DNA from: Pseudomonadota bacterium
Lineage (GTDB): Bacteria > Pseudomonadota > Alphaproteobacteria > Sphingomonadales > Govanellaceae
Reading direction: 5' to 3'
Length of the DNA: 64,000 bases
NCBI GenBank assembly: GCA_003577275.1
Contig: QEVO01000006.1
Span: 1 to 64,000 of the forward strand
Under the pieces are notes generated by a model, which was given only the letters and a program-made list of their open reading frames with translations, was not told the DNA's origin and did no database searches. How positions within the stretch are numbered: the stretch's first letter is position 1; the number at the start of each line of letters is the position of its first letter. Shown in pieces: positions 2,695 to 37,450 of the stretch. Both the position numbers and the translations under genes were made by a program.

Positions 2695-3279
2695 ATGAGC
2701 GGCGACGCCACATGCCAAATGGAAGTGCTGCGGCTCATTCCGGCCGGCGCGTGCCTGACCATGGATCAGCTTGATCCGATGACGGAGTTGACCCGCCGCC
2801 AGATCGCCAAGGCGGCGGGCAAACTGATATCACGTGGACTTTTAGAACGCATAGAAGCGGGTTGTTATCAACTGACGCCGGCCGGGATTGCAGCGCGGGA
2901 GAGCGGCATGCCGCTCACCTCCGGTCCTAACCGGCGGCGTCCTGGCCCACAACCATGGCGGAAGGAGACATTTCGCGCCCGCATGTGGCGGGTGATGCGC
3001 ATGAAGAAGGTTTTTACCGTGCCTATGCTGCTGGAGCTGGCGTCGCGCGGCCCGAATGACACGGCGCAGGGCTGTCATCGGTATTTATCCGTGCTGCGCC
3101 GCGCCGGCTATGTGATGCGCCTGCCCGGCCGCGCGCCGGGCACCGCGATTACCTCCAACGGTTTTGCGAAGTACATGCTGGTGAAAGACACCGGTCATAA
3201 ATGGCCGCTGGTCAGGAAGCACGGTGTCTATGACCAGAACTTGCGTGAAGTAGCGCCATTCACAGGAGCGCAATCATGA
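2695..3279 (+). CDS. Early phage protein with two winged-helix-like segments
   Basis: 194 residues. The start directly follows the MuB stop (TAA then ATG), which indicates translational coupling. Residues about 18-65 (TRRQIAKAAGKLISRGLLERIE...YQLTPAG, in pieces) look like a winged helix that ends in the usual LTPAG wing. A second similar segment at about 100-160 (VPMLLELASRG...RYLSVLRRAGYVMRLPG) reads as another wHTH. Position in the early operon and the fold suggest DNA binding, perhaps in replication or early control. I do not recognise a specific Mu counterpart. Confidence 0.75.
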   Translation: MSGDATCQMEVLRLIPAGACLTMDQLDPMTELTRRQIAKAAGKLISRGLLERIEAGCYQLTPAGIAARESGMPLTSGPNRRRPGPQPWRKETFRARMWRVMRMKKVFTVPMLLELASRGPNDTAQGCHRYLSVLRRAGYVMRLPGRAPGTAITSNGFAKYMLVKDTGHKWPLVRKHGVYDQNLREVAPFTGAQS

Positions 3280-3668
3280 AGGCGGTTGCCTCCATGACGC
3301 GGGCGCGTGATGCATGGGGTGCGGCGATGCCCGCATGGGTGAAGGCGCTAGCGGAAGAATGCGACCGCACGAGCCAAGAAAAAGCCGCGCGGCGTATCGG
3401 CACGACCGGGAGCACCATCAATATGGTTTTGGGCAAAAAATATCGCGCCGGAACCGATCGGATCGAACGCAAGGTGCGGGCGCTCTTAATGCACGAGACT
3501 TGTCACTGCCCTTTTTACCGCGCCGAGATCAGGAAAGCGGATTGCGACACTTGGCGCGCGCGTAAATCGCCGACCTACAGCCCGCAGGCGTTCAGGTTGT
3601 GGCAGAGCTGCCAGACCTGCCCGGAAAATCAGCAAATCACCAGCGATGCGAGGAGCAAAACATGTTGA
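3276..3668 (+). CDS. Small HTH protein with cysteine cluster
   Basis: 130 residues, start overlapping the previous stop (ATGA at 3276). Residues about 30-55 (SQEKAARRIGTTGSTINMVL, continuing) form a Cro/LacI-like helix-turn-helix. The C-terminal half has cysteines in the pattern CHCP, then a lone C, then CQTC, which may bind a metal. Proteins of this kind are common in early regions of Mu-like phages of alpha- and betaproteobacteria. It may be a small regulator, but its target is unknown. Confidence 0.75.
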   Translation: MKAVASMTRARDAWGAAMPAWVKALAEECDRTSQEKAARRIGTTGSTINMVLGKKYRAGTDRIERKVRALLMHETCHCPFYRAEIRKADCDTWRARKSPTYSPQAFRLWQSCQTCPENQQITSDARSKTC

Positions 3669-3871
3669 GCGAAGACTTGGAAAATTTAGGCAGCATGATC
3701 CACGAGCTTGCCTCCACCCACAAGGGGCTAAAGCCGCAGCACGCCGAAATCATCGAGACGCTGATCAAGGTTCACGCCGAGCGGGCGCGGATCATGGAGC
3801 GCTCCGTGGTGATGGCGTCGGCGCGGGCGCAAATTGGCGGCAACGTGGTGCCGATTGGAGGACGTCAATGA
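3662..3871 (+). CDS. Hypothetical early phage protein, 69 residues
   Basis: Starts at ATG 3662 after GAGGAGC at 3650-3656 and overlaps the end of the previous gene by 7 bases; it ends in an ATGA overlap with the DUF3164 gene at 3868. The frame is open further upstream (to 3599) but no ribosome site supports an earlier start. The product is helical and charged (ENLGSMIHELAS, HAEIIETLIKVHAERARIME), with no motif I recognise. Tight packing between two real genes is the main support. Confidence 0.65.
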   Translation: MLSEDLENLGSMIHELASTHKGLKPQHAEIIETLIKVHAERARIMERSVVMASARAQIGGNVVPIGGRQ

Positions 3872-7136: not shown

Positions 7137-7390
7137 GCCAGAAATGCCTGCATTGCGACATTATGGAGATGATCAACGATCGCGTTCCGCAGGGGCTGCG
7201 GTCGCCGGAGACATTACGCTCGCTCGCCTGGGTGGCAGGCGACGTGATAAAAGCCTGTCCTCATGGTGATGCTGAAAAAGCAAGGATGCTCGGGGCAATA
7301 TTCGGGGAGATCACCGCGCGCACTGGGCTTAAAATTAAAATAGTTGCGCTGAATAACTCGATCTCCAAATCAAACGAGAGCGTCCACTAA
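7133..7390 (+). CDS. Hypothetical small phage protein with CLHC motif
   Basis: 85 residues, start overlapping the methyltransferase stop (ATGA) and stop overlapping the gemA start by one base. The N-terminus has CLHCD and a later lone cysteine in ACPHGD. The last third is noticeably AT-richer. No family recognised. Confidence 0.6.
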   Translation: MSQKCLHCDIMEMINDRVPQGLRSPETLRSLAWVAGDVIKACPHGDAEKARMLGAIFGEITARTGLKIKIVALNNSISKSNESVH

Positions 7391-7794
7391 TGACCCGCTC
7401 CGCTCTCGCCAAGGTGCATATCGCCAAGAAGGAATTGGGGCTTGACGACGACACCTACCGCGCGCTGTTGCTGCGCGTGGTGGGAACGGAGTCCTGCGCC
7501 GGTCTCAGCGAAGTAAAAATCGGCCGTGTGCTCGACGAGCTAAAGCGGCTGGGCTGGAAGCCGCCGGTAAAGCGCCGGCTGGGGGCCGAGGCGGCCAAGA
7601 TGTACGCGCTGTGGTGCGTGCTCGCCGACCACGGCCACGTGGAAACCCGCTCGGTCAAGGCGCTTGAAGCTTACGCGCGGCGCATGACCGGGATTGCGCG
7701 GCTCGATTGGATCAAGCGGCAAGACGCCACCCTTGTCATCGAAAGCTTGAAGCAGTGGCTCCGTCGCGTCGGCCTGGAAGGAGAATTGGCATGA
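7390..7794 (+). CDS. gemA: GemA / Mu gp16-like regulatory protein (DUF1018)
   Basis: 134 residues. The sequence begins with the family hallmark ALAKVHIAKKELGLDDDTYR, followed by GLSEVKIGRVLDELKRLGWK, and later MYALWCVLADHG. GemA of Mu affects host gene expression and DNA topology early in lytic growth; that role is known for Mu and inferred here. The gene lies between the methyltransferase block and the Mor-family activator, the place where Mu-like phages carry gemA, and overlaps the next gene by ATGA. Confidence 0.9.
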   Translation: MTRSALAKVHIAKKELGLDDDTYRALLLRVVGTESCAGLSEVKIGRVLDELKRLGWKPPVKRRLGAEAAKMYALWCVLADHGHVETRSVKALEAYARRMTGIARLDWIKRQDATLVIESLKQWLRRVGLEGELA

Positions 7795-8312
7795 GCTGGA
7801 CCCCCTTATCACACAACCGCGCCGGCGCGCATCAGCGCACATGCGTGCGAGTGGCGCTCAGACTTCGCGGCAAGAAGAGGCTGGGCGTGATCATCGCCAT
7901 GCCCGATCTGATCTTGGCGCACCTGGGCTGGAAGCGCGGGGATAAAGTGGCGGTGCAGATCGGCGGCGGCGAACACGCGGGGCTCGTCAAGCTTGCAAAG
8001 AGCGATGTCGGCTATGTCATCGGCACGTCTGGCACCGGCAAGCATGAAGTCAAGCAAGTGGTGCTGCCCGCCGCCTGGGCGGGATTGCCGAAGACGCCGC
8101 GCCCGGCTTGCGAGGCAGCACATCATTTTGACGATGATTGCCTTATCATCACGCTGCCGACCTGGGCGCCGCGAGCGCCAGCGCTGGCGCCAGCACAGAC
8201 GGCCGTCGTTACGGAAAAGACGCCCGTCGCGGCGCGCCCCACGCCGCCGCTTGATCCAAAGTGGGCGGCGGCCATGAAGGGCAAAACATTCGGCGGCAAG
8301 GTGCAGAGGTAA
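7791..8312 (+). CDS. Hypothetical phage protein, 173 residues
   Basis: The start at ATG 7791 overlaps the gemA stop. The first half contains a beta-rich unit (CVRVALRLRGKKRLGVIIAM, then GWKRGDKVAVQIGGGEHAGL) reminiscent of an AbrB/SpoVT-like swapped-hairpin fold. The second half is rich in Ala and Pro (PRAPALAPAQ, ARPTPPLDPK) and looks like a linker with a short tail. No function can be assigned. Confidence 0.65.
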   Translation: MSWTPLSHNRAGAHQRTCVRVALRLRGKKRLGVIIAMPDLILAHLGWKRGDKVAVQIGGGEHAGLVKLAKSDVGYVIGTSGTGKHEVKQVVLPAAWAGLPKTPRPACEAAHHFDDDCLIITLPTWAPRAPALAPAQTAVVTEKTPVAARPTPPLDPKWAAAMKGKTFGGKVQR

Positions 8313-8314
8313 CC

Positions 8315-8725
8315 GTGACAACCGAGCTGCCGCCATCAAATGATGCCGCCTCGCTGCCGCCGGTGCTGGCGGAGATCGCGGACATCATCGGCATCACCGC
8401 CGCGCTGAAACTGGCGGCGGAATGCGGCGGCACCTATATTTACATCTCCGCCAAGCCAAAGCCGGACAATCGCGCGGCCCAGGTGATCGGCGCGGACGCC
8501 ATGCGCGCCCTGGCGCGCCACTTTCGCGCCGGTATCCTGGAAATGCCCATCGCCACCCACGCGCAGCTTCACCGCCGCAATGAGACCATCCGCGCCGGCG
8601 CGCAGCAAGGGCTGTCGCAAAGCCAACTGGCGCGCCGCCATCGCATGACCGCGCGCCATGTTCGCCGGATATGCGCCGATAGCGCTGTCGATGACCGGCA
8701 AATCGATCTTTTTGACAACGACTGA
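8315..8725 (+). CDS. Mor/C-family transcription activator
   Basis: 136 residues from GTG 8315, 2 bases after the previous stop. The pattern LAEIADIIGITAALKLAAEC then GGTYIYIS is the dimerisation part of the Mor family (Mor and C of Mu), and RRNETIRAGAQQGLSQSQLA followed by RRHRMTARHVRRIC is the helix-turn-helix. Mor-family dimers bind a dyad just upstream of -35-less promoters and recruit RNA polymerase. Two dyads of this kind follow, at 8770 and 17325. No second Mor/C paralogue is in the window, so this protein may do both the middle and late jobs. Confidence 0.9.
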   Translation: MTTELPPSNDAASLPPVLAEIADIIGITAALKLAAECGGTYIYISAKPKPDNRAAQVIGADAMRALARHFRAGILEMPIATHAQLHRRNETIRAGAQQGLSQSQLARRHRMTARHVRRICADSAVDDRQIDLFDND

Positions 8726-8769
8726 TCCGCCCGCCTAAGATCGCCGCGCGCGCCCTTCACCCGCCTTCC

Positions 8770-8812
8770 GGACATGTGTCCTTATTTCCCGAGGCTTCCC
8801 GTCATCCTATCG
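8770..8812 (+). promoter_or_regulatory. Mor-type operator and late promoter before lysis block
   Basis: GGACATGTGTCC (8770-8781) is a perfect 12-base palindrome, preceded by CCCGCCTTCC and followed by T-ATTT. A CTAT element lies at 8807-8810, where a -10 would be if the activator sits at about -43. The same palindrome core, flank and CTA spacing recur at 17325. There is no recognisable -35, as expected for an activator-dependent promoter. Confidence 0.75.
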
Positions 8813-8819
8813 TCGGGGC

Positions 8820-8993
8820 ATGAAGCTCAAGCACCGCACCAATCGCCCAGGTAAGCGCGCCCGCTTTCGTCGCCGCCGTCGCACCGCGCCGGTCACCGCA
8901 CCGCGTTTCGACAGCGTTGTAATGCGGCGATTAAAAGCGATGATGCGGCAATCCGATCTGACGCACATGACGGTTATGGCAGGTGGCGCATGA
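8820..8993 (+). CDS. Possible small arginine-rich protein, perhaps leaderless
   Basis: 57 residues, MKLKHRTNRPGKRARFRRRR at the start, ending ATGA-overlapped with the endolysin gene. The ATG lies only about 10 bases downstream of the predicted -10, so the transcript would start at or next to the codon and lack a ribosome site. The second half (MRRLKAMMRQSDLTHMTVMA) has several internal ATGs that could be the real start. It may equally be non-coding leader. Confidence 0.4.
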   Translation: MKLKHRTNRPGKRARFRRRRRTAPVTAPRFDSVVMRRLKAMMRQSDLTHMTVMAGGA

Positions 8994-9502
8994 GAGTGCC
9001 GCCGCCGATCATCGCCGCCATCGCAGCCGGAGGATTATCGGTCGGCGGCGTGTCGTTTTACGAGCATAACGAGGGCATGAAATTACAGCCCTACCGCGAC
9101 GTGACCGGCACGTGGACGGTGTGCGCCGGCCTAACGCAGGTGGAGATGCGCGCCTACACCGCCGAGGAATGCCGCCAGATGACGGTGCGCGCGGTGCAGG
9201 AGGCTGGCCATGCGGTGGAGACGCTGACGCCGGCGGCCAAGGGCAACAATTTCTACGTCGCGGCGCTTGCTGATTTTTATCTGAATGTCGGCCGCGCCAA
9301 CTATCTGGCGAGCACGGCGCACAAGAGGTTTTCCGACGGCGATCCGTTGGCCGGCTGCCTGGCGCTCGGCCCATACATCGTCGATTATCAGACCGGCGTC
9401 GCCCGCAGCGGCTATATCCACAGCAAGGGGTCGGTCATCAACGGCCTTAAAAACCGCCGTCTGGCGGAGATGGACGTGTGCTTGCGGGGGTATGGATCGT
9501 GA
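8990..9502 (+). CDS. SAR-type endolysin, GH24 lysozyme
   Basis: 170 residues. Cleaves peptidoglycan glycosidic bonds at the end of the lytic cycle. The catalytic triad of the T4/P21 lysozyme family is visible as E28 (HNEG), D37 (PYRD) and T43 (GTWT). The N-terminal stretch PPIIAAIAAGGLSVGG is weakly hydrophobic and rich in Ala and Gly, as in signal-anchor-release endolysins that leave the membrane when it depolarises. The spanin genes follow at once. No separate canonical holin is next to it; a pinholin would suit this enzyme type. Confidence 0.9.
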   Translation: MRVPPPIIAAIAAGGLSVGGVSFYEHNEGMKLQPYRDVTGTWTVCAGLTQVEMRAYTAEECRQMTVRAVQEAGHAVETLTPAAKGNNFYVAALADFYLNVGRANYLASTAHKRFSDGDPLAGCLALGPYIVDYQTGVARSGYIHSKGSVINGLKNRRLAEMDVCLRGYGS

Positions 9503-10601: not shown

Positions 10602-10897
10602 GTTTACGAGACATCATGGACGCCGAGCGTCGGTTGTGCATCCTGACGCTGTTATCCGAAACGCCAGATTATCGGCTGAACCACAAAATTCTGGCCACCG
10701 CCGTATCGGCGCTGATGGCGCCGCGGGTTTCCGGCGACGTGATCCAGGCGGACCTGGCGTGGCTCAAAGACGTCGGCCTGGTGCAGATTGAAACCGATAT
10801 TTCCTGGCCGGTGATCGCCCGGTTGACGCCGCGCGGATTGGATGTGGCGACCGGTGCTACCGTGGTGCCCGGCGTTAAGCGGCCGGACCCGAGGTAG
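10598..10897 (+). CDS. Mu gp26-like small wHTH protein
   Basis: 99 residues, ATGA-overlapping DUF2730. The product is a compact winged helix (LCILTLLSETPDYRLNHKIL ... QADLAWLKDVGLVQIE ... ARLTPRGLDVATG), the gp26-type ArsR-like protein that sits between gp25 and gp27 in Mu-like phages. Function unknown; the conserved position suggests a role in packaging initiation. Confidence 0.82.
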   Translation: MSLRDIMDAERRLCILTLLSETPDYRLNHKILATAVSALMAPRVSGDVIQADLAWLKDVGLVQIETDISWPVIARLTPRGLDVATGATVVPGVKRPDPR

Positions 10898-10901
10898 CAT
10901 C

Positions 10902-11459
10902 ATGCCGCCCAAATCGTCCATCACGCGGCTGCCCAAAGAGCTGCGCCAGCTACTGGAAACCATGCTGGTGGATGGCCGGCTGACGCTGGACCAGATCATG
11001 CAGGCGCTCAAGGACGCCGACGCGGGCGTATCGCGCAGTGCGGTCGGGCGCTACGCCAAAAGCCAGGAAAAGGTCATCCAGAACCTGCGACGCATGCGGG
11101 AATTGGGTGAAGGGTGGGGAAAAGAATTTGGCGATCAGTCCACCACCAAGACGGTACGCACCCTGATTGAACTATTGCAGTCTTATATCTTTGAAATCCT
11201 GATGGCCCGCGCCGATCTCGCCGATGGCGGCGAGCCGATGAGCACAAAGGAAATCAACCAGCTTTCGCAAGCCCTGCACAAGCAAATTCTCGGCGTGAAA
11301 GCGGCGCTGGAAACTGAAATCACCATCCGCAAAGACCAGGAAGAGCGCACCAAGGCGGCGGCGGTCAAGGCGGCGGAGACGGTGGCCAAGGAAAAGGGAT
11401 TATCCACCGATACGATTGAAGCCATCAAGGCGCAAATCCTGGGCGTGAAGACCACATGA
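10902..11459 (+). CDS. Small terminase-like protein, DUF3486 / Mu gp27
   Basis: 185 residues from ATG 10902. The N-terminal helix-turn-helix (SSITRLPKELRQLLETMLVD, then TLDQIMQALKDADAGVSRSA) would recognise the packaging site; the rest is a long helical oligomerisation region with an Ala/Lys-rich end. The stop overlaps the large terminase start (ATGA), as in Mu. Confidence 0.88.
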   Translation: MPPKSSITRLPKELRQLLETMLVDGRLTLDQIMQALKDADAGVSRSAVGRYAKSQEKVIQNLRRMRELGEGWGKEFGDQSTTKTVRTLIELLQSYIFEILMARADLADGGEPMSTKEINQLSQALHKQILGVKAALETEITIRKDQEERTKAAAVKAAETVAKEKGLSTDTIEAIKAQILGVKTT

Positions 11460-13066
11460 GCGCCGCGCCCGCCCACATCCCGAAGGCGGAACTGCCGCCG
11501 TTGCTTTTGGACCAGGGCTTGCCCTCGGTCCTTTTGCCGTATCAGGGCAAGGTGCTGTCCACCACTTCGACCATCGCGCTGACCGTCATCGAGAAGTCGC
11601 GGCGGATCGGCGTCACCTGGGCGTTGGCGGCGGCCGGCGTCTTGACCAGCGGCGCGGCGCGCAAAGCGGGCGGCATGGATACGCTCTATCTCGGCCCATC
11701 CTTGGACATGGCGCGGGAGTTTATCGACGCCGCCGCCATGTGGGCGAAAGCGTTCCTCCCCGCCGCGTCCGAGGTGGAAGAATTCCTGTTCAAGGACCAT
11801 CATTCGGAAGGCGATAAGGACATCCAGGCATTCCGCATCAAGTTCGCCTCGGGCTTTGACATCGTGGCGCTGTCCTCCGCGCCGCGCTCCTTGCGCGGGC
11901 GGCAAGGCTTCGTCATCATCGATGAGGCGGCGTTCCATGACGCGCTTGATGAAGTCTTGAAGGCCGCCTTGGCTCTGATCATGTGGGGCGGCCGGGTGGC
12001 GGTGGTATCGACCCACAACGGCGACCTCAATACCTTCAATCAGTTGGTCAAGGAAATCCGCACCGGCAAACGGCCCGGCGCGCACCTCCGCGTCGACTTC
12101 GACGACGCCTTGAAGGATGGGCTCTATCGCCGCATCTGCCTGGTCTTGGGCAAGGAATGGACCGCCGAGGGTGAGGCCGCCTGGCGCCAGGAGGTGGTGG
12201 ATTTCTATGGCGAGGACGCGGAAGAAGAGTTGTTCTGCGTGCCCAAGGCCGGCACCGGCGCGTGGCTTTCCCGCGCGCTCATCGAGGCGCGGATGCAAGA
12301 CGGCTTGTCCGTCATTCGCTGGGAGCAGCCGGACAGCTTCACCCATGAGAGCGACCACATCCGCGAAGCGGAATGCCTCGACTTTTGCGAGCGCCATTTA
12401 AGACCCCTTTTAGCGGCGCTTGATCCCCATTTAAGAACGTCGCTGGGGAGCGACTTCGGCCGCTCCGGCGACCTATCCGTGTTCTGGCCGTTCCAGGTGC
12501 TTGCCGACACCACGCGGCGCACCCCGTTCGTTCTGGAGCTGCGCAACATCCCCTATAAACAACAAGAACAGATCCTCTACTACATCGCCAATCGCCTGCC
12601 CCGGCTGTCGGGCATCGCCATGGACGCGCGGGGCAATGGTCAGGCGCTGGCCGAATTCGCGGTGCAAAAGTACGGCAGCGGCATGGTGGAGGCGGTGATG
12701 CTGTCGACGGAGTGGTACCGCAAGAACATGCCGCTTTACAAAGCCGCGTTCGAGGACGCCACCGTCATCCTGCCGCGCGATGAAGACATCGCCTCCGACC
12801 ATCGAGCCATCGTGCTCGACAAGGGTGTGGCCAAGCTGCCGGAGAAAGGCGGGCGGCGGAAAGGTACGGACGGCAAGCAGCGGCATGGCGACGCCGCCAT
12901 CGCCGGCGCGCTGGCCTATTACGCCTCGCTCATCGATGTGCAGGTCTATAAAGTTTTAAGCACGGGCGAGCGGGTGCGGGCCTTTGATGAGCAGCCGGGC
13001 GTACAAGTCGATCAGGCCGTGGGCTTTGGCGTGGTGCGGCGCGACTTGAATTTAGGAGGATATTGA
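11456..13066 (+). CDS. Terminase large subunit, Mu gp28-like
   Basis: 536 residues. Powers headful DNA packaging and cuts the DNA. The ATPase has a Walker A variant at S48-RRIGVT-54 and Walker B VIID156E157AAF. The C-terminal RNase H-like nuclease starts with GSDFGRSGDLSVFW, supplying its first aspartate. Product length and gene order (gp27, gp28, gp29) match Mu. Confidence 0.93.
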   Translation: MSAAPAHIPKAELPPLLLDQGLPSVLLPYQGKVLSTTSTIALTVIEKSRRIGVTWALAAAGVLTSGAARKAGGMDTLYLGPSLDMAREFIDAAAMWAKAFLPAASEVEEFLFKDHHSEGDKDIQAFRIKFASGFDIVALSSAPRSLRGRQGFVIIDEAAFHDALDEVLKAALALIMWGGRVAVVSTHNGDLNTFNQLVKEIRTGKRPGAHLRVDFDDALKDGLYRRICLVLGKEWTAEGEAAWRQEVVDFYGEDAEEELFCVPKAGTGAWLSRALIEARMQDGLSVIRWEQPDSFTHESDHIREAECLDFCERHLRPLLAALDPHLRTSLGSDFGRSGDLSVFWPFQVLADTTRRTPFVLELRNIPYKQQEQILYYIANRLPRLSGIAMDARGNGQALAEFAVQKYGSGMVEAVMLSTEWYRKNMPLYKAAFEDATVILPRDEDIASDHRAIVLDKGVAKLPEKGGRRKGTDGKQRHGDAAIAGALAYYASLIDVQVYKVLSTGERVRAFDEQPGVQVDQAVGFGVVRRDLNLGGY

Positions 13067-14517
13067 TGGCTTCGACACGCGAGAACAAACCCCTCTTCGA
13101 GGAACTGGCCAACCCGGCGCAGCACAAGTCGGCTCTATATGCCGAGGCCATCACCAAGAGCGTGCTCGATGAGAAAGGCGGCGCGCGCAAGCTCTATGCC
13201 GAAATCATGCGCGACGATCAGGTGAAATCCACCTGGCAGCAGCGCACCACGCGGCTTACGTCACTGCCCTATGAAGTGGTCGCCGGCGGCGACGCACCCC
13301 AGGACCAAGAGGCCGCCGACTTCATGGAGCAGCAACTCAAAGACGTCGGCTTCCCTCTTGTTGTGGAAAAGATGCATCACGGCCTGTTCTACGGCTTCGC
13401 GGCGGCGGAGATGCTGTGGGGCGTGGAGAGCGGCAAAATCATCATCGAGGACATCAAGGTGCGCGACAAGTTCCGCTTTCAGCTTGAGGTCGGCGACAAG
13501 CTCACCCTGAAAGCGGCCGGCGGCTCCGGTGTTGTCATGCCGGAGCGCAAGTTCTGGCTCTTTAAAGCGCCGGCCGACAACGACGACGTGGCGCACGGCC
13601 TGCCGTTGGCGCACTGGCTCTATTGGCCCTGCTTCTTCAAGCGCAACGATATCCGTCTGTGGCTGTTGTTTCTAGACAAGTTCGGCGCGCCATCGACCAA
13701 GGGCAAGTACGCGCCCAACGCCACTGACGCGGAGAAAAAGATGCTGCTTGAAGCGGCGGCGGCGCTCCGCTCGGACGCGGCGGTGGTAATCCCCAACACG
13801 ATGGAGCTGGAACTGATCGAAGCGGTGCGCTCGGCCAGCGGCAACTACGACGACGTTTATGACCGCATGGACGCGGCCATCGCCAAGGTGATCCTGTCGC
13901 AGACCATGACCACCGATGACGGCGCGTCGCTGTCTCAGGCCAAGGTGCACGAGGGCGTCGCCGACGCGGTGGTCAATTCGGACGCACGTCTGTTGGCGGC
14001 GAGCTGGAACACCGGCCCCGGCTGGTGGCTCACCGCATGGAACTTTCCGAACGCCAAGCTGCCGCAGTTGCGCTTCATCACCGAGGAGCCGGAAGACCAG
14101 GCGCAGGCGGTGGCGCGCGACCAGGCGCTCCACGCCATGGGCTGGAAGCTCACCGAAGACAAGGTGCGGGAGACCTATGGCGAGGGCTACGAGCGGGCGG
14201 AAGCAGCGCCGCCGGCGCCAGGACAACCGCCGCAAGCCGCCGCCGATGAACCGCTATCGCTGTCGGAAGCCGACGCCTTGGACATCGTCGACCGTTTTTT
14301 GATCGACGAATTGAACGCCGATTGGGCGGAGCTGATGACGCCGGCGATCGATCCCATTCTGGCGCTGGCCGATGGCGCCACATCCTTCGATGACTTCATC
14401 GGCAAGCTGGCCGCCACGCTTTCAGAGATGGATGTGGCCAAGCTTACGGAACACCTGGCGCGGGCGGCGTTCAATGCGCGGCTCGCCGCCGTGGCGGAAG
14501 TGGACGGCGATGCATAG
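13066..14517 (+). CDS. Portal protein, DUF935 / Mu gp29-like
   Basis: 483 residues from ATG 13066, with AGGAGG at 13053-13058 and a one-base overlap with the terminase stop; a TTG one codon earlier is less likely. It has the DUF935 features FYGFAAAEMLWG and FLDKFGAPSTKGKYAPNA. It forms the dodecameric ring through which DNA enters the head. The last 100 residues are acidic and helical. Confidence 0.92.
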   Translation: MASTRENKPLFEELANPAQHKSALYAEAITKSVLDEKGGARKLYAEIMRDDQVKSTWQQRTTRLTSLPYEVVAGGDAPQDQEAADFMEQQLKDVGFPLVVEKMHHGLFYGFAAAEMLWGVESGKIIIEDIKVRDKFRFQLEVGDKLTLKAAGGSGVVMPERKFWLFKAPADNDDVAHGLPLAHWLYWPCFFKRNDIRLWLLFLDKFGAPSTKGKYAPNATDAEKKMLLEAAAALRSDAAVVIPNTMELELIEAVRSASGNYDDVYDRMDAAIAKVILSQTMTTDDGASLSQAKVHEGVADAVVNSDARLLAASWNTGPGWWLTAWNFPNAKLPQLRFITEEPEDQAQAVARDQALHAMGWKLTEDKVRETYGEGYERAEAAPPAPGQPPQAAADEPLSLSEADALDIVDRFLIDELNADWAELMTPAIDPILALADGATSFDDFIGKLAATLSEMDVAKLTEHLARAAFNARLAAVAEVDGDA

Positions 14518-14526
14518 GAGAGCGGC

Positions 14527-14802
14527 ATGGCAAGCGCGGATATGAAAACGGCGCAAATTGAGCGTGCGATGGAGCGCCTTAGGGCAGCACGGGCCATGGC
14601 GGATATGTTGATCGCGGAATACCCTGATTTTTGCGCGGCCCTGCGACCTCATATGTTGACCGGGAACATCGAAGGGCTCGCTAAAGTGATCGCTGAATTT
14701 GCCGACAGTAGTCGTGGCCCGGACAGGGAGTTGGCGGAATCTTTTTCTGAACTCGCGGCCGTCATGGATTTTTTTGTGTCAGGCGGAAAACACCATGCCT
14801 GA
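14527..14802 (+). CDS. Hypothetical protein between portal and MuF
   Basis: 91 residues, starting 10 bases after the portal stop behind AGGAGAG (14516-14522) and overlapping the MuF start by 8 bases. All-helical and mildly acidic (IERAMERLRAARAMADMLIA, AESFSELAAVMDFF). It has lower GC than its neighbours. Mu has no gene here. If the MuF C-terminus is a toxin, a small acidic neighbour could be an immunity protein, but immunity genes normally lie downstream and nothing else supports this. Confidence 0.55.
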   Translation: MASADMKTAQIERAMERLRAARAMADMLIAEYPDFCAALRPHMLTGNIEGLAKVIAEFADSSRGPDRELAESFSELAAVMDFFVSGGKHHA

Positions 14803-16930
14803 AATTGACCTCAAACCCCTGCCGCCGGAGGAGGCGGTCAAGTTCTTCCGCGACAAGGGCTATGCCTTTTCCTTCAACTGGAAGGACATGTGGCAGGAAG
14901 AACATGGCCGCGCCTTCACGGTGGCCAAGGCCATGCGGCTCGACATCCTGCAGGACATTCGCCAGTCGGTGGACAAGGCGCTGGCCGATGGCATCACCTT
15001 CGAGCAGTTTCGTAAAGAATTGACGCCTATTCTGCAAAAGAAAAACTGGTGGGGGCGGCAGACGATGACCGACCCCAAGACCGGCGAGACCATCATGGCC
15101 CAGCTTGGCAGTCCGCGCCGGTTGCGGATCATCTATGACACAAACTTGCGCATGGCGCGCGCGGCGGGGCGGTGGGAGGCGGCGCAGCGCCTGAAAAAGC
15201 GCCGGCCCTTTTTACGCTATACCGCCGTCCTCGACAGCCGCACCCGGCCGGAGCATCGCGCTTGGCACAACACCGTGCTGCCGGTGGATCATCCCTTCTG
15301 GCAGACCCACTATCCGCCCAACGGCTGGAACTGCTTCCCGGCCGAGACGGTTGTGCGCTGTGCCGCCAAGCTGGGGTTAAAAGCCTGGTATGCGGGGGAA
15401 ATGGTGGAGCTGCACACGGCCCTCGGGCACCGATTGACCGTCACCGCCAACCATCCCGTATTGACCAGCCGTGGATGGATTGGCGCGCACATGCTGCAAA
15501 AAGGCGACAAGCTGATTGGCGCAAGCGGCGATGTCGATGCCGCGCTTCATGGGATCGTAGACAATGAGCATCCTCCAGCCCGCGCTGAAGATTTGTTCGA
15601 GGCGCTCGCGGCGGAGGGCCTTCGCATCGCTCCAATGGCGTCGGACGATTTCCACGGCGACGCGCGGTTCATGGAAAGCAAAGTCCACATTGCGGGCGCC
15701 GATGGCGCCCTGATGCACATAGTCAAGGCAGCGCGCCGTAAGCTCATCCGCGAAAGCGGGTTCCAAGCGGCACTGCATCGCGGGATTGAAGCCACCGACG
15801 TTGCCGTTAGCGCGCCGCAGACTGCGGCGGTCATTGGTGATGCCATGCTTGCGCAAAATACCGCTGACGGTCGGCTTTGCCATGCCGAGCCGTCGCGCGA
15901 TGGCGGCGCTGCTCATGAGCCCCGAGCGGTAAAGGGACAAGACCTGGCGCTCGGTTTTAGCATTGCGCGCATCGGCGGCGATCCAGGCGGCCTTGAGCTG
16001 CCGCTCGATACCTCCAGGCGCGCTTTTGATCGCCCGCCATTTCATCTTCTCGGCGGCCGCACGGCCGCGCAGGGTGACGCCCGCGCGTCCGAGCGCGCGG
16101 GCGAGGGCGGGGCGGCTGCATCCCGCCTCTTCCGCCAACTGCTTAAGGCTAACCCCGCCACGGTAGCGCGCAACGAGGTTATCGAGATTCGAAAATTCCA
16201 ATGGACGGGTCATGTCTACGACTTCACGACGGAATCCGGCCTGATTATGGCGGGCGGAATCATTGTAAGCAACTGCCGCTGCATCGTGCAATCGCTGAAT
16301 GAGCGGGATCTGGCGCGGGTGGGCTTGAAGCCGTCGGCCGCCGCGCCGGACTTCAAAACCCGCACCCTGATCAACAATCGCACAGGAAAAGAGATCGCGG
16401 TGCCGGACGGCATCGATCCGGGCTTCGGCTACAATGTGGGCCGGGCGGCGATGGCAGGGAGCAATGACGCCCTGACGGCGAGCGTCATCAGGGCTGCCCC
16501 AAGCCTCACCGGGGCGGCGCGGGCGACGGTGCGCGAGGTGGTGGAGTCCAGGGCATTTGAAAAGTTCATAACGGATGCTGCGGGGACAATGCCCGTCATG
16601 GTCATCGGCGATGAATTAAGGGCTGCCATTGGCGCAAAAAACCCGGTTGTCGTTTTGTCGGATGAAACCATGCTCAAGCAGCATGCGGCGCATCCGGAGC
16701 TCACCGTGAAGGATTACCGCCGCCTGCCAGCCATCGGGGAAGCTCCAGATCTCGTTATCCAAGATGGAAAAAATACGCTCGTCTTCATTCAGCGCGGGGA
16801 TGTGTGGTTTTCCGCCGCCATCAAGGCGACCAAAACCGGCAAGGCGAATTTCTTGACCAGTTTCCGCCGCACGAACGCCGAGGACGTGGAACGGCATAAG
16901 CGCCGGGGCAAGGTCTTGTTTGGGGAATGA
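14795..16930 (+). CDS. MuF-type minor head protein with intein and toxin-like C-terminus
   Basis: 711 residues from ATG 14795 (the frame is open to 14699, but that is the shadow of the previous gene). Residues 1-179 are the N-terminal MuF domain (gpF/gp30) with ALVDSRTRPEH-like YTAVLDSRTRPEHRAWHN and HYPPNGWN. An intein of 314 residues follows (15332-16273), and the motif resumes as CRCIVQSLN. Splicing would leave 397 residues with an intact NGWNCRC. The last 125 residues resemble the phage-borne Barnase/EndoU/ColicinE5/RelE-like nuclease tails found on MuF polymorphic toxins. The protein should sit at the portal and may be injected with the DNA. Confidence 0.88.
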   Translation: MPEIDLKPLPPEEAVKFFRDKGYAFSFNWKDMWQEEHGRAFTVAKAMRLDILQDIRQSVDKALADGITFEQFRKELTPILQKKNWWGRQTMTDPKTGETIMAQLGSPRRLRIIYDTNLRMARAAGRWEAAQRLKKRRPFLRYTAVLDSRTRPEHRAWHNTVLPVDHPFWQTHYPPNGWNCFPAETVVRCAAKLGLKAWYAGEMVELHTALGHRLTVTANHPVLTSRGWIGAHMLQKGDKLIGASGDVDAALHGIVDNEHPPARAEDLFEALAAEGLRIAPMASDDFHGDARFMESKVHIAGADGALMHIVKAARRKLIRESGFQAALHRGIEATDVAVSAPQTAAVIGDAMLAQNTADGRLCHAEPSRDGGAAHEPRAVKGQDLALGFSIARIGGDPGGLELPLDTSRRAFDRPPFHLLGGRTAAQGDARASERAGEGGAAASRLFRQLLKANPATVARNEVIEIRKFQWTGHVYDFTTESGLIMAGGIIVSNCRCIVQSLNERDLARVGLKPSAAAPDFKTRTLINNRTGKEIAVPDGIDPGFGYNVGRAAMAGSNDALTASVIRAAPSLTGAARATVREVVESRAFEKFITDAAGTMPVMVIGDELRAAIGAKNPVVVLSDETMLKQHAAHPELTVKDYRRLPAIGEAPDLVIQDGKNTLVFIQRGDVWFSAAIKATKTGKANFLTSFRRTNAEDVERHKRRGKVLFGE
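15332..16273 (+). other. Intein in MuF head protein
   Basis: Begins with Cys1 (CFPAETVV, block A) and has block B as TANHPVLTSRGW with the T38-x-x-H41 pair. It ends with block F (GHVYDFTTESGLIMAGG) and block G (IIVSN), directly followed by Cys+1. The penultimate residue is Ser instead of the usual His; such inteins can still splice but often more slowly. Excision joins NGWN to CRC and restores the most conserved MuF motif. Between blocks B and F, about 230 residues on this strand show no LAGLIDADG or HNH motif; the opposite strand encodes a nuclease there. A bacterial intein-like (BIL) domain is the alternative, but Cys1, Asn314 and Cys+1 favour a true intein. Confidence 0.88.
15377..16213 (-). 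CDS. Antisense homing-endonuclease-like gene inside the intein
   Basis: 278 residues from ATG 16213; the frame is open to 16291. Residues 21-46 (GVSLKQLAEEAGCSRPALAR, then ALGRAG) and 98-123 (GLMSSAAIARRLGMAKPTVS, then GILRKH) are two helix-turn-helix units. Residues 170-220 match a Vsr/DUF559-like PD-(D/E)XK core: NVD177FAF, VAVE188I, RRHW, then RRERLEQ and GWRMLIVYD. The gene sits wholly within the intein, between its splicing blocks, in the register complementary to the + frame. Over 165 codons (15560-16054) my hand count gives about 76 % GC at the minus wobble position and 64 % at the plus wobble position, favouring this strand. TTGCAC-18-TACAAT (16291-16262) could be its promoter. No good ribosome site is seen. 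The last 35 residues are antisense to intein block B and may not be functional. Confidence 0.7.
   Translation of the reverse strand: MTRPLEFSNLDNLVARYRGGVSLKQLAEEAGCSRPALARALGRAGVTLRGRAAAEKMKWRAIKSAPGGIERQLKAAWIAADARNAKTERQVLSLYRSGLMSSAAIARRLGMAKPTVSGILRKHGITNDRRSLRRANGNVGGFNPAMQCRLEPAFADELTARCLDYVHQGAIGARNVDFAFHEPRVAVEIVRRHWSDAKALRRERLEQIFSAGWRMLIVYDPMKRGIDIAACANQLVAFLQHVRANPSTAGQYGMVGGDGQSVPEGRVQLHHFPRIPGF
16553..16927 (+). other. Toxin-like C-terminal domain of MuF protein
   Basis: Last 125 residues of the MuF protein, from AFEKFITD to the end. Landmarks are VVVLSDETMLKQHAAHPEL, TVKDYRRLP, IQDGKNTLVFIQR, IKATKTGK and FLTSFRR. This layout (a Lys/His-bearing helix, a beta-hairpin with an invariant-looking Lys, and an F-x-R strand) is that of the PBECR-type nuclease tails of MuF polymorphic toxins; the match is by eye. 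It would be an RNase-like effector delivered with phage DNA or acting on competing cells. Confidence 0.5.
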
Positions 16931-17324
16931 TGCCGCGCGGTGGGACTCCCATGTCCCCACAAGCGCTCCGCTGGACCAGAGGTCAACGTGCTACGGCCGG
17001 GAGATTCACCGTGTCACGCGCGGCACCTGATTTACGCTAGTCCATTTTGCTCTTTTTTTCAATAGACCGTAACACTCCCCGCTTCCCCTCACCCCGCTCC
17101 CGATCCCGGTTTGTTCCGCAAGCCGTTTTAAAGCGCCACGAGCGGCCGAGCGCGCCTATCCGCCCCCCTGGGGGCTGGCGGCCGCGGACCCCATTCAAAA
17201 ACCCGTTTTACGGGGCAGCAATCGCGTGATTGAGCGCGCGGGTAAGGCCGCCGCCTTGTCCGCCGCCCCGATCCCGGCTATAGGTGTCACCATCCCCCCG
17301 CTTCACCCGCCCCGCCCGCCTTCC
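16931..17324 (+). other. Non-coding spacer upstream of late promoter 2
   Basis: About 390 bases without a supportable gene. It contains a T-rich run (17046-17060, CTCTTTTTTTC), a GC hairpin around CCCCCCTGGGGG (17164-17175) and a small hairpin CCCGTTTTACGGG (17202-17215), which may terminate transcripts from the head operon. Short open frames here have no ribosome site or motif. In Mu the gpG gene follows gp30; here that gene (24078) has moved into the tail block, and the spacer marks the break. Confidence 0.5.
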
Positions 17325-17366
17325 GGACACGTGTCCTGATTTTTTAGCCCTGCGGCTGCCGCTAGG
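17325..17366 (+). promoter_or_regulatory. Mor-type operator and late promoter before protease/capsid block
   Basis: GGACACGTGTCC (17325-17336) is a perfect palindrome identical to the 8770 site except for the central base pair. Both are preceded by CCCGCCTTCC and followed by T-ATTT, and CTAG at 17362-17365 aligns base for base with CTAT at 8807-8810 as the -10. The first gene downstream begins at 17402 behind CGAGGGA, leaving a leader of about 30 bases. Confidence 0.75.
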
Positions 17367-17401
17367 GTGCCCTCGACGCTTGCTTTCAGCCACGAGGGAC
17401 C

Positions 17402-18526
17402 ATGCCACACGCCATCGAAATCTTCCGCGCCGGCACGCACACCGCCATGAACGGCCGTCAGGTGACCATATCGCCTGAGGATGTGGCCGCCATGGCCGCG
17501 AGTTACGACCCGGCGGCGTTCGAGGCCCCGGTGGTGGTGGGGCACCCGCGCCACGACGCCCCGGCCTATGCCTGGGTGAAGGGCCTGAAGGTCGGCGACA
17601 ACGCCACCCTGATTGCGGAGATTGACGATCTTGATCCTCAGTTCGCCGAGCTCGTCGCCGCCGGCCGGTTCAAGAAGGTCAGCGCCAGCTTTTACGAGCC
17701 GAGCGCCGCCGCCAACCCCAAGCCCGGCGCTTACACGTTAAAGCACGTGGGCTTCCTGGGGGCCGCCGCGCCGGCGGTCAAGGGGCTTAAATCCGTGTCC
17801 TTCTCGGCCGACGAGGAGGCCATCACCATCGAATTCGGCGCGGCCGAGGCCGCCCGCGCGGCGGGCTGGGGCTTGCGCACCATGGCGGGCGTGATCCGCC
17901 GGTTGCGGGAATTCCTCGTGGAGAAGGAGGGCGTCGAGGTGGCCGACCGGGTGATCCCCGGCTGGGATGTCGACGCCCTCCAAGCCGACGCCGCCGAAAC
18001 CGTGGCCGAGATCGACCAGCGGGTCGGCCCGGCCTTTGCCGAGACCATCAAGGAGACTGAGATGACGTTAAAACCGGAAGACCTGGCGGCGCGCGAAGCC
18101 GCGCTGACCGAGCGGGAGGCGAAGCTTGCCGCCGATACCTTGGCCTTCGCCGAGGAGCAAAAGATCAAGCGCCATGGCGAAAACGCCGCGCAGCTCGACG
18201 CGCTGATCACCACCGGCAAGCTCGCGCCGGCGCTCAGGGCCGATCTCTTGGCCTTCATGGATGGCCTCGACCACGCCGGCGTGCTGGCGTTCTCCGAGGG
18301 CGCGCAAAAATCGCCGCTCGCTTTCTTCCGCGAGCTCTTGGGCAAGACCGGCCAGGTGATCAATTTCGCGGAAGTGGCGAAGGCGGATGGTGCGGTGGCG
18401 GCCTTCGCCGAGCTTAACGCCAACGGCGTCGCGGCGGCGATCGCGGCCTACCAGAAAGACCAGGCGGACAAGGGGCGGATCATCGACGCCGCAACCGCCG
18501 CAACCGAACTTAAAAAGAAAGGCTGA
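17402..18526 (+). CDS. Prohead protease / scaffold, Mu gpI-like
   Basis: 374 residues. The N-terminal half (MPHAIEIFRAGTHTAMNGRQ ... VVVGHPRHDAPAYAWVKGLK ... KKVSASFYE) is the Mu-type capsid maturation protease. The VGHP...D and SAS segments would hold the His and Ser of the active site. The C-terminal third (from MTLKPEDLAARE) is a helical scaffold with a Glu/Ala-rich coiled coil. It is the first gene after the second Mor-type promoter. Confidence 0.88.
   Translation: MPHAIEIFRAGTHTAMNGRQVTISPEDVAAMAASYDPAAFEAPVVVGHPRHDAPAYAWVKGLKVGDNATLIAEIDDLDPQFAELVAAGRFKKVSASFYEPSAAANPKPGAYTLKHVGFLGAAAPAVKGLKSVSFSADEEAITIEFGAAEAARAAGWGLRTMAGVIRRLREFLVEKEGVEVADRVIPGWDVDALQADAAETVAEIDQRVGPAFAETIKETEMTLKPEDLAAREAALTEREAKLAADTLAFAEEQKIKRHGENAAQLDALITTGKLAPALRADLLAFMDGLDHAGVLAFSEGAQKSPLAFFRELLGKTGQVINFAEVAKADGAVAAFAELNANGVAAAIAAYQKDQADKGRIIDAATAATELKKKG
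18062..18526 (+). CDS. Internal in-frame scaffold protein (Mu Z-like)
   Basis: 154 residues. ATG 18062 lies inside the protease gene, in frame, 6 bases after AGGAG (18051-18055), a stronger ribosome site than most starts in this prophage. The product would be the coiled-coil scaffold alone. Mu makes its Z scaffold from an internal start within gene I, so the arrangement has precedent. Confidence 0.65.
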   Translation: MTLKPEDLAAREAALTEREAKLAADTLAFAEEQKIKRHGENAAQLDALITTGKLAPALRADLLAFMDGLDHAGVLAFSEGAQKSPLAFFRELLGKTGQVINFAEVAKADGAVAAFAELNANGVAAAIAAYQKDQADKGRIIDAATAATELKKKG

Positions 18527-18946: not shown

Positions 18947-19873
18947 ATGCCTGCTCCATTCCCCGTCGACCCCCATCTGACCGGCATCAGTATCGCCTAT
19001 AAGAACGCCGACTATATCGCCGACGCCGTGCTGCCGCGCGTCTACGTCGGCAAGGAGAGCTTCAAATACTGGCTCTATAATCTGGGCGAGGGCTTCACCA
19101 TTCCCAATACGCGGGTGGGCCGCAAGAGCGAACCAAACCAGGTGGAGTTCAGCGCCACCGAAGCCACCGCCTCCACCGACGATTACGCCCTCGACGATCT
19201 CATCCCGCAAAGCGACATCGACAACGCGCCGGCAAACCATGACCCCAAGGCGCGGGCGGTGCAGGGCATTACCGATCTCGTCATGCTCGACCGCGAGGTG
19301 CGCACCGCCGGGCTGGTGTTCGCGGCTGCGAACTACAACGCCGCCAATAAGGCGACGCTTGCCGGCAACGATCAATGGTCGGACTTCGTCAACTCCGATC
19401 CCGTCGAAGATATCGAAACGGCGCTCAACGCCTGTCTCGCCCGGCCCAACATCGCCGTCTTCGGTCAGGAAACGTGGTCGGTGCTGCGCCGTCATCCCAC
19501 CATCATCAAGGCGGTGAACCGCAGCTCGGGCGACAAGGGCCTGGCGAGCCGCCAGGACGTGGCGGAACTCTTTGAGCTGGAGGAAATCTTGGTCGGCCAA
19601 GGCCGGCTCAACACCGCGAAGAAAGGCCAGGCGGTGACACTCTCTCGGGTGTGGGGCAAGCACGCGGCCTTTTTATACCGCAACCGCCTGGCGGACACGC
19701 AGCAGGGCTTGACCTTCGGCTTTACCGCGCAGTTTGGCGATCGCGTCGCCGGCGAAATTGCGGCCCCGACAAAAGGCATGCGCGGCGGGACCATCGTGCG
19801 CGCCGGCGAATCCGTCAAGGAACTGATCGTCGCCGACCGCGCCGGCTACCTGTTCACCAACGCGGTGGCGTAA
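18947..19873 (+). CDS. Major capsid protein
   Basis: 308 residues. The N-terminus HLTGISIAYKNADYIADAVL, the stretch DDYALDDLIPQSDIDNAP, and AVFGQETWSVLRRHPTIIKA are typical of the HK97-fold coat protein of siphovirus-type Mu-like phages and related prophages. Gene order (protease, decoration, capsid) agrees. A ribosome site (ATGAGGTC at 18933-18940) precedes ATG 18947. Confidence 0.9.
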   Translation: MPAPFPVDPHLTGISIAYKNADYIADAVLPRVYVGKESFKYWLYNLGEGFTIPNTRVGRKSEPNQVEFSATEATASTDDYALDDLIPQSDIDNAPANHDPKARAVQGITDLVMLDREVRTAGLVFAAANYNAANKATLAGNDQWSDFVNSDPVEDIETALNACLARPNIAVFGQETWSVLRRHPTIIKAVNRSSGDKGLASRQDVAELFELEEILVGQGRLNTAKKGQAVTLSRVWGKHAAFLYRNRLADTQQGLTFGFTAQFGDRVAGEIAAPTKGMRGGTIVRAGESVKELIVADRAGYLFTNAVA

Positions 19874-30649: not shown

Positions 30650-33600
30650 ATGGGCCGCGTCGTCCTCATCGAAGCCTGGCCGCGCCGGCCCAGCGATGGC
30701 GCCACGGTGCCGTTCCGAGTGATCGGCGGCGCACCTATCCGCGCCGATTATTTTGGCGTGCAATGGCTGCCGGCGCTGGCCACGCTGCCGCGCTTTGAAA
30801 CCCGGCTGGGGTTTGACGGCCGGGTGTTCGGCGCCGGCGCGGTGAACAGCGTGGGCGACATCTCCGTGGCGCTGGGATCGACCGCGCTTGACGCCTACCT
30901 GGAATACCTGTGGGCCAATGCGGCGGTCACCATCAAGGAAGGCAATACCGACGACGCCGACGGCGCGTTTGTGACGACCTGGACTGGCCGCGCCGCCACC
31001 GCCAAGGCGGCCAACAAGCGGATGATCATCACGCTCGCTGATCCGGCGGAGGAGCTGCGCCGCCCGGTGTTGACCAGCCGCTATGCCGGCAGCGGCGATC
31101 TGGAAGGCCCGGCCGATTTAAAAGGCGAGCTGAAATACAAAGGCTGGGGTGTTTGCGAGAACGTACCGACGCGATTGATCGATCCCGCCTATAACATCTG
31201 GCAGGCCAATGATGGCGCGGTGACCTTTGGCGCGATCCGCGACGGCGGCGTGGCGTTCTCGTCAGTTTCCAATGTCGCCGATCTGGCGGCGTTGCGCGCC
31301 GCTGTCATCGCCGCCGGCGCGGTTGTCACCTGCAACGCGCTGGGATTGATCCGCCCGTGGACCGCCCCGAAATATAAGCTGACCGCCGACATCACGGTGG
31401 GATCGGCGACCACGGCGGCCGACATCGCACAGGCCATCGTGACGGCGCGCTCGACCTTAACCTTCGCCAGCGGTACGGTGGCCGCGTTCAACGCACTCAA
31501 CAGCGCCGCGATCAGCGTGTTCATCGATGATGAACGCACGGTGGCGGAAGCGCTCGATCAGATATTCGCCGGTATCGGCGCGTGGTGGAAGCTTAATGCG
31601 TCGGGTCAGATCGAGCTCGGGCGATGGGAATTCGGCGGCGGCGCACAAACCTTCGAAGCGGAGGTGGCCGACATCGCCAGAGTTGATATTTTGGCCCCTA
31701 CCTACCGCCGCCAGGTGGGATACCGCCGCAATTATGCGCCGCTGTCGGACGGTGAAATCGCGGCAGCGATCTTGAGCGGGGATATTTCGGATATCGGAGC
31801 CTTCGCGCCGATTGCATTGGTCAACGACGCCGGCTGCACGATCACCGGCAATGTGGTGGTGGCGACGGGGGCAACGGGAGCATGGGGCGTCGCGGCGGTA
31901 CATAGCGTCAATGCGTATGCTGGCGGCGTCTTCGTGGAGTTCATGCCGGCGCAGGCCGATAAGCAATTCATGGTGGGTCTGAGCGTCACGCCGACCACGG
32001 ATAACAGTTACGCCAGCATTAACTTTGCGATTTTTTGCGCGGCGACCGGCGACTTACAGGTCTATGAGGGTGGCGTCCAGAAATATTCATCCAGCACTTA
32101 TGTTGCTGGCGACGTGTTGGCGGTGACATTCGACAACGTGAATGTTCGGTACTGGAAAAATGGCGTGGTGATTTACACCAGCGCCCAACCGCCGGCCGTG
32201 GGGGCCAAGCTTTATCTTGACAGCGCCTTTTTGAGTCTGAACGGTAAGGTCACCATTCTCGGCTTCGGTCCTTACACGGCGAACGATGTGTACGGCAGGC
32301 CGCCATCACAGGTTCTGTTGGGCCTGACGGAAATCCACGAAACATTCAGCCGCTACGCCTCGGTTTCCGACATTCCCTGGACATTCACTGGCAGCGGTGA
32401 ATTATCATTGGTGTCCAGCACCGACAGCGGCGGCAAGGCGCTGCGGTGCGGCAACAACAGCGGTAATGATCACGTTCAAGGCATCTGCAATCAGTGGCTG
32501 GATTACAGCCCGGAAGATTTGTACATGGTGTCGTTTGATATCGAGATCGAAGCGGTCAGCTCCGGCGTGATGTATTTTGGCGTGAAAGGGGAAGACGTAG
32601 ACGGAAATAACATCATATCTGACGCCGGCACTTACCACTATCAGGCGGGCATAGCCGAAGTTGAGAGCTCTACCGGCAGGTTTAAGTACATAGGGTATAT
32701 TCGGGGATTGGCCGCCGCCGGCGGCAGCACGGGATACGAGGCGGGCGCGCCGGATAATCCACGTCCCATGAAAACTGGGGTCGTGCGGATAAAACCCATG
32801 TTCATCGTCAACTATTCAGCGGCGGCGGGGCAAATCAAAGCCCATGAGGTTCGGCTGCGGAAGGTGGTGGACGCCACGCCGCTTTATCGAGGAAACTGGT
32901 CGTCGGCCACCACATACTACATTAATGACGCGGTGGATTATCAGGATCGCCGCTTCATGGCGCTCATCAAAAACACCAACGTCGCGCCACCCGCCTCAGA
33001 AAGTTCCAGCGCCACGTGGCTTTACATCGGCAAGCAGCCCGCCGAGGCCGGCGCAACGCGCAATGATATTTACAATCAAACCAGCGACCCAGGCGCGGTG
33101 GCTAATGGAAGTTATTGGTACAGCTCATCGACAAAATTGCTCAAGCGGCGGGAGAGCGGCGCGTGGGTGACGGTGGGTAATGCTTTCGACAACACAAACT
33201 CGTTGACTGACGGCGCGAACCTCGGTGGCACGGCGACATGGAGCGGTGTCAGCGGCACCGGCAAGCCGGAAGATTATTCCACCCGCAACGACATTTACAA
33301 TCAGACCTCCGATCCCGGCGCGGTGGCTAATGGAAGTTATTGGTACAGCTCAAGTACCAAGCTTTTGAAGCGGCGCGAGAGCGGCGCGTGGGTGACGGTG
33401 GGTAATGCTTTCGACAACACAAACTCGTTGACTGACGGCGCGAACCTCGGTGGCACGGCGACATGGAGCGGGGTTTCCGGCACCGGTAAACCTACGGACT
33501 ATGCCACGCGCAACGATTTTTACAATCAAACCAGCGACCCAGGCGCGGTGGCCAATGGCAGCTATTGGTATTCATCGTCGACAAAATTGCTCAAGCAGCG

Positions 33601-37392: not shown

Positions 37393-37401
37393 CCCGGACG
37401 C

Positions 37402-37450
37402 TTGTCCTGAATGGCGCGTAAAATTGTCCCGAATGGCGCGCGCCGCTACA
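37402..37450 (+). repeat. Paired 17-base direct repeats, probable prophage right end
   Basis: TTGTCCTGAATGGCGCG (37402-37418) and TTGTCCCGAATGGCGCG (37424/37425-37441) are direct repeats 23 bases apart with one mismatch. A terminal CTACA follows (37446-37450). Mu places two adjacent 22-base transposase sites a few bases inside a right end that finishes in CA, so the layout fits a MuA-type right end. A remnant of an IS21-like insertion sequence end is the alternative. The left end is not in the window, so the 5-base target duplication cannot be checked. Confidence 0.55.

Follow-up and report, generated by a model that had tools for sequence, protein, structure and literature searches.

Mor and C of phage Mu are the textbook late activators, and the detail about them comes from that one phage. 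Among its late promoters, Plys and PI are both C-dependent (PMC4461284), and by the gene order of Mu they lie at the two positions that match the sites described below; for each of the four promoters Plys, PI, PP and Pmom, binding of C to a dyad element is reported (PMC4287176). According to the accessible part of the work on the middle promoter Pm, this promoter has a -10 but no -35 element, and a 16-bp element bound by Mor and centred at -43.5 stands in for the latter (PMC4390567). RNA-seq of the B3-like phage Fc02, as far as the available account goes, places mor in the early operon; after it come one cluster with the holin-endolysin and packaging genes and another with the structural genes (PMC9936078). 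No account of late operators in Mu-like phages other than Mu was found in the accessible open-access literature; subscription literature lay outside the search.

Two probable operator sites in the prophage

The first base of the window (the whole 64-kb stretch of DNA that was analysed) is at a contig edge and falls within a transposase gene, whose frame is open over positions 1–101, so the left end of the prophage and its repressor genes lie off the contig. The transposase gene is followed by genes for a MuB-like ATPase, a protein matching phrog_286 (7390–7794), a family for which no function is given, and a Mor/C-family protein (8261–8725, with the conserved part from 8318); this last gene, the two operators, their putative -10 hexamers and the late-operon genes located below are on the forward strand. 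The product of 8261–8725 matches PF08765 with 38.3 bits (cut-off 24.9) and phrog_836, 'late transcriptional activator', with an E value of 1e-31, which places the predicted protein among the Mor/C activators (PF08765). A profile of 17 relatives reaches the structures 9l0x (C with polymerase and promoter; E 4.5e-6) and 1rr7 (Mor; E 0.001). A single-sequence search against the solved Mu Mor and C structures gave no match, and Foldseek with the activator model returned Mu C and Mor only at E 1.2 and 1.9, with neither below 1. The recognition helix reads R-H-V-R-R (residues 113–117, numbered from 8318) and falls in a predicted helix at 112–121 (model mean pLDDT 87.9).

The original prediction held that a late operator at 8770 has a second copy before the protease/capsid block, that the two palindromes differ only centrally, and that they share flanks and an equally spaced CTA. 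The sequence agrees on every point, and the matching second site is confirmed. Operator A (8760–8787) carries the dyad core GGACATGTGTCC at 8770–8781, and its 19-mer starts 38 bases past the stop codon of the activator gene, which is directly upstream. Operator B (17315–17342), 8.6 kb from the first site, carries the core GGACACGTGTCC at 17325–17336 and sits between the lysis/packaging block and the protease/capsid/tail block. By position, A corresponds to Mu Plys and B to Mu PI. The cores differ by a single central base, so that only 17325–17336, and not 8770–8781, is a perfect 12-bp palindrome. The two sites have the 28-base stretch CCCGCCTTCCGGACAYGTGTCCTKATTT in common, with few differences. 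At both, CTA starts 37 bases past the first base of the dyad core (8807 and 17362) and overlaps a putative -10 hexamer, TATCGT at 8808–8813 and TAGGGT at 17363–17368, each at +33 from the dyad centre.

The first putative late operon begins with a 57-codon ORF (8820–8993) that has its ATG at the predicted start (+1) of promoter A, and continues with an endolysin gene (8990–9502; Phage_lysozyme, phrog_7) and the packaging genes (10842–16930), which encode the small and large terminases, the portal and a MuF-like protein with a putative intein. The first gene of the second encodes the head maturation protease (17402–18526; phrog_976, E 1e-102), and the major head protein gene lies at 18947–19873 (phrog_1005, E 4e-100; PF03864). 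As a separate observation, the MuF-like protein (14699–16930) has an insertion at about residues 213–525 that matches the intein-splicing families PF14890 and TIGR01445, both under their cut-offs; the homologues in loci L041, L042 and L045 lack the insertion and are contiguous across its place.

The long motif is rare. The 19-mer CCTTCCGGACAYGTGTCCT occurs in the window only at 8764 and 17319, and a search allowing up to 3 mismatches gave the same number of matches, 2, versus 0.04 expected by shuffling (0 of 100 shuffles reach 2). The prediction that the 64-kb window holds no third copy is thus borne out at this stringency. It had also called for a scan of the complete prophage. Across the whole genome of the host, in which this contig carries the prophage without its left end, the 14-mer CCGGACAYGTGTCC has 2 matches, both of which are these sites; a search of 295 further genomes from the same order gave no match. 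Taken alone, the 12-bp core with its central pair left free is less special than the long motif, occurring at 4 exact places in the host genome, 2 of which are the operators. One candidate third site, GGACGCTTGTCC at 37396–37407, has matching half-sites and was rejected, as no -10 lies at the right distance. It is located at the right end of the prophage, beside putative transposase-binding repeats. Among viral contigs, an exact 18-mer search gave 0 matches and an exact 15-mer search gave 15 single matches, without a counterpart in any of them to the Mor, lysis, head or transposase proteins tested.

Paired putative operators and promoter spacing in related phages

To compare related phages, 80 loci were collected with a protease profile and joined by four named phages, and Mor genes were located with a profile built from 11 seeds. 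Twenty-six phages in which over 1.5 kb separates mor from the protease gene downstream were used, with L055 (a near-copy of L053) and L041 (a copy of L083) dropped. Similarity was taken as the best shared ungapped segment between the region after mor and the region before the protease gene. Its mean is 17.9 for own pairs versus 10.2 for 650 mismatched pairs from the 26 phages (p 4e-12). Dyad pairs were scored against a fixed threshold of 5.0, which corresponds to the 99th percentile among 200 mismatched pairs. A dyad pair scoring at least 5.0 is present in 15 of the 26 phages, and then in 19 of 25 newly fetched two-block loci from viral contigs and class-level genomes; 11 of the 26 (three of them accepted by eye) and 6 of the 25 lie below it. 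The operator logo was built from 36 operators of 18 phages, namely the 15 past the threshold plus L074, L083 and L093, accepted by eye. Judged by these sequence comparisons, a layout of one predicted activator and two predicted promoters with phage-specific operator letters is widespread in Mu-like phages.

Individual phages illustrate the layout and its variants. RcapMu carries CCCCCGGACCTGTGTCCGGGGG twice, at 13949 and 22370, about 8.4 kb apart; no published description of these sites was found in the accessible open-access literature, the RcapMu genome paper being outside the search. RcapMu (complete record) and YPCBV-1 (nearly complete) have one Mor-family ORF each and exactly two exact operator copies each. 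KS10 has three copies, with -10 offsets counted by hand on the sequence, and its lysis/packaging block is inverted, at the left end of the genome and running leftward. The copy at 7600 separates gp11 from gp10 and, in the leftward direction into the packaging block, has TAACCT at +32; the copy at 18125 precedes the protease homology, with CAGACT at +32; and the copy at 31108 precedes the tail gene gp44, with GATCAT at +32. The inverted block is still preceded by a copy, which suggests that the operator travels with its operon. In L087 a further exact copy, its third, lies between genes at 15883, several kb downstream of the second, and L039 has a third copy at +13129 from mor, several kb past the second. 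Some relatives therefore appear to have a third, tail-side operator like Mu PP. Extra copies in L112 and L117 are inside or near ORFs and were not trusted. The same method found no dyad pair in Mu, so Mu could not serve as a positive control, and a scan of B3 for the GA core gave no convincing pair.

When the 36 operators are aligned on the dyad centre, A is present at +33 in 20 of 36, A at +35 in 17 of 36 and T at +37 in 19 of 36. A TATAAT-like hexamer starts at +32 with a mean score of 3.14, whereas 1000 shuffles reach at most 2.61. In 24 held-out operators from 12 lineages the hexamer peak is at +33, with a score of 3.88. Both window sites have the hexamer at +33, unlike the first set. As a side observation, operators of the GAC class seem to put the -10 at +33 and those of the GAA class at +32. 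If the hexamer is assumed to start at -12, the dyad centre falls at about -43.5 to -44.5, and at -44.5 for the window sites, which would fit the spacing of a Mor/C-type promoter provided that TATCGT and TAGGGT are the -10s. In 13 of 60 operators, an ATG occupies positions +1 to +3 counted from the predicted start. This suggests leaderless late mRNAs in some phages, with the ATG on the inferred +1, and the 57-codon ORF at 8820–8993 is possibly one such case.

Recognition-helix letters and half-sites

GA and TC of the half-sites are common to all 18 first-set phages (L117 was re-registered by hand), and the adjoining bases vary. Reading the Mor helices beside the half-sites gave two helix rules, which were written down before new data were fetched. 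After lineages at least 80% identical to the first set in the helix region were dropped, 12 new lineages were held out; 10 of them have a GA/TC core and form the rule count, and L135 and L213/L140, which have strong pairs without this core, were left out. The inner-base rule (C if residue j is Arg, otherwise A) holds in 10 of 10 held-out lineages, 7 with Arg and 3 with another residue (Fisher p 0.008), and in all 28 lineages (12 + 16) without exception (p 3e-8), although both p-values overstate independence because the lineages are related by descent. The outer-base rule held for Tyr and Glu and in only 3 of the 5 held-out Arg lineages: the expected Arg with G at b3 failed in L234 and L235, where RTVRR occurs with TGAC (2 of 5 Arg lineages; 2 of 10 held-out lineages). 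Among the Mor columns tested, association with the operator letters b6 and b3 peaks, respectively, at the two neighbouring recognition-helix residues named by the rules (z 12.6 and 10.9, against 4.7 and 4.4 for the columns ranked next), and both residues fall in the predicted helix 112–121. The residues aligned with them in Mu C are Tyr and Gln. A further scan covered 30 Mor loci outside the rule count (16 others and 14 sub-threshold two-block loci), with the GA/TC core required. Six were judged clear cases (L039, L042, L043, L044, L045 and KS10; L044 with a single good copy in the available stretch), and 6 of 6 follow the inner-base rule.

These readings argue, with some reservation, for a simple code in R-x-V-i-j, in which j as Arg goes with GAC and any other residue with GAA, and the base just before this triplet depends mostly on i, being G for Arg, T for Tyr or Phe and C for Glu or Ser; phages would have drifted to a large number of operator pairs that differ from one another, with the two promoter positions and the spacing kept. 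The idea comes from the helix letters read beside the half-sites and not from the overall correlation of helix and operator similarity, which is weak (Mantel r 0.26, p 0.02; N-terminal part r 0.09, p 0.26). If the code is true, the late operator of a new phage would be predictable from its activator.

A probable single activator for two late operons

The same two places are occupied in different phages by other letters, the -10 lies at a fixed distance, and the half-sites covary with the recognition helix. The idea that a single Mor/C-family activator serves two late operons through these sites is supported on these grounds, and we consider it very probable that they belong to two late promoters, both switched on by the 8261–8725 protein. 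We infer a one-step cascade, in which the activator would be made from the early operon and would lead from early to late expression without a separate Mor stage. A dimer would sit on the dyad, whose centre lies about 44 bases upstream of the predicted start, would take over the role of a -35 element and would let a host sigma-70-type polymerase use the weak -10 hexamer. Promoter A (predicted start about 8820) would drive the lysis and packaging genes, and promoter B (about 17375) the protease, capsid and tail genes.

The alternative that survives best, though improbable, is a two-stage Mor-then-C cascade with the second activator on the missing left end. The left end is indeed absent, with the transposase frame open to the contig start, and L127 has two tandem Mor-family ORFs (2701–3213 and 3246–3737). 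Against this, L127 is the only one of 37 Mor-bearing loci (103 scanned) with more than one Mor-family gene, and RcapMu and YPCBV-1 have one each. A C-type paralogue with sites of its own had been named at the outset as the finding that would speak against a single activator; the search of the host genome (14 contigs, 88.6% complete) gave one Mor-family gene above the Pfam cut-off. With the left end off the contig and the genome complete to that degree, a second activator retains a small probability, and its absence is presumed.

It is still less likely that the palindromes are intrinsic terminators of the upstream operons. The dyads of RcapMu, L097 and L087 form a stable GC-rich hairpin followed by T, T-rich stretches follow the window sites, and a stem of at least 6 combined with at least 5 T in 7 is present in 5 of the 36 operators. 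The remaining 31 miss these criteria, the stem in the window is only 4 bp, and a terminator could do without a near-identical pair, a -10 at constant spacing and letters that covary with a DNA-binding protein. In RcapMu, L097 and L087, the operator may also end the upstream transcript.

Slightly less likely again is that the sites bind a repressor, either the c-type repressor of the prophage or a host protein, which would silence the late promoters. Palindromic operators at promoters generally fit a repressor equally well, and the prophage's own repressor is off the contig. However, the dyad letters follow the Mor helix, and the dyad lies upstream of the -10 at the position given for Mor in the accessible text on Mu (centre -43.5; PMC4390567). 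A chance or non-regulatory repeat, for example one related to the central gyrase site before gene I of Mu, which is annotated in the same gap, can practically be dismissed in view of the other copy, which lies at a distance of 8.6 kb behind the activator gene, and of the shuffle and mismatched-pair statistics.

The operator pairs can be recognised directly in genome sequences, and helix-letter covariation would make late-gene control in Mu-like phages predictable. The pairs offer ready-made activator/promoter combinations for swap experiments and bear on how a phage shifts operator specificity at several sites together.

Of the described systems, the Mu C regulon resembles this locus in its Mor/C-family protein, in the activator gene directly before the lysis operon, and in dyad operators that precede the lysis genes and the protease gene (here at 8770 and 17325, respectively). 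In contrast to Mu, no separate Mor was found in the window prophage, no P (tail) or mom site was found in the 64-kb window at up to 3 mismatches, the operator letters differ, and the two sites are far more alike than Mu's own. Mu Pm with Mor shares the dyad-to-start geometry within one base, but Pm controls the middle operon with C, whereas the window sites head late operons. RcapMu has one Mor-family gene, the same gene order, the RHVRR helix letters and two identical operators with GGAC/GTCC half-sites; its dyad is longer and also terminator-like. Fc02, in the available account, likewise has a single mor ending the early operon and separate lysis/packaging and structural clusters, but its early operon runs leftward, a third late cluster is reported and the late operators are unmapped (PMC9936078).

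The original prediction of a single activator for two late operons therefore stands on the recurring pair, the -10 spacing and the helix covariation. Its view of the cascade as a simplification of Mu needs narrowing, as C of Mu already serves both Plys and PI; the simplification lies in the apparent absence of a Mor/C split and of the P and mom sites. The simplest reading is that the Mu C regulon has collapsed onto a single Mor/C protein: the regulon itself is known, and what would be new is its single-activator, two-promoter version.
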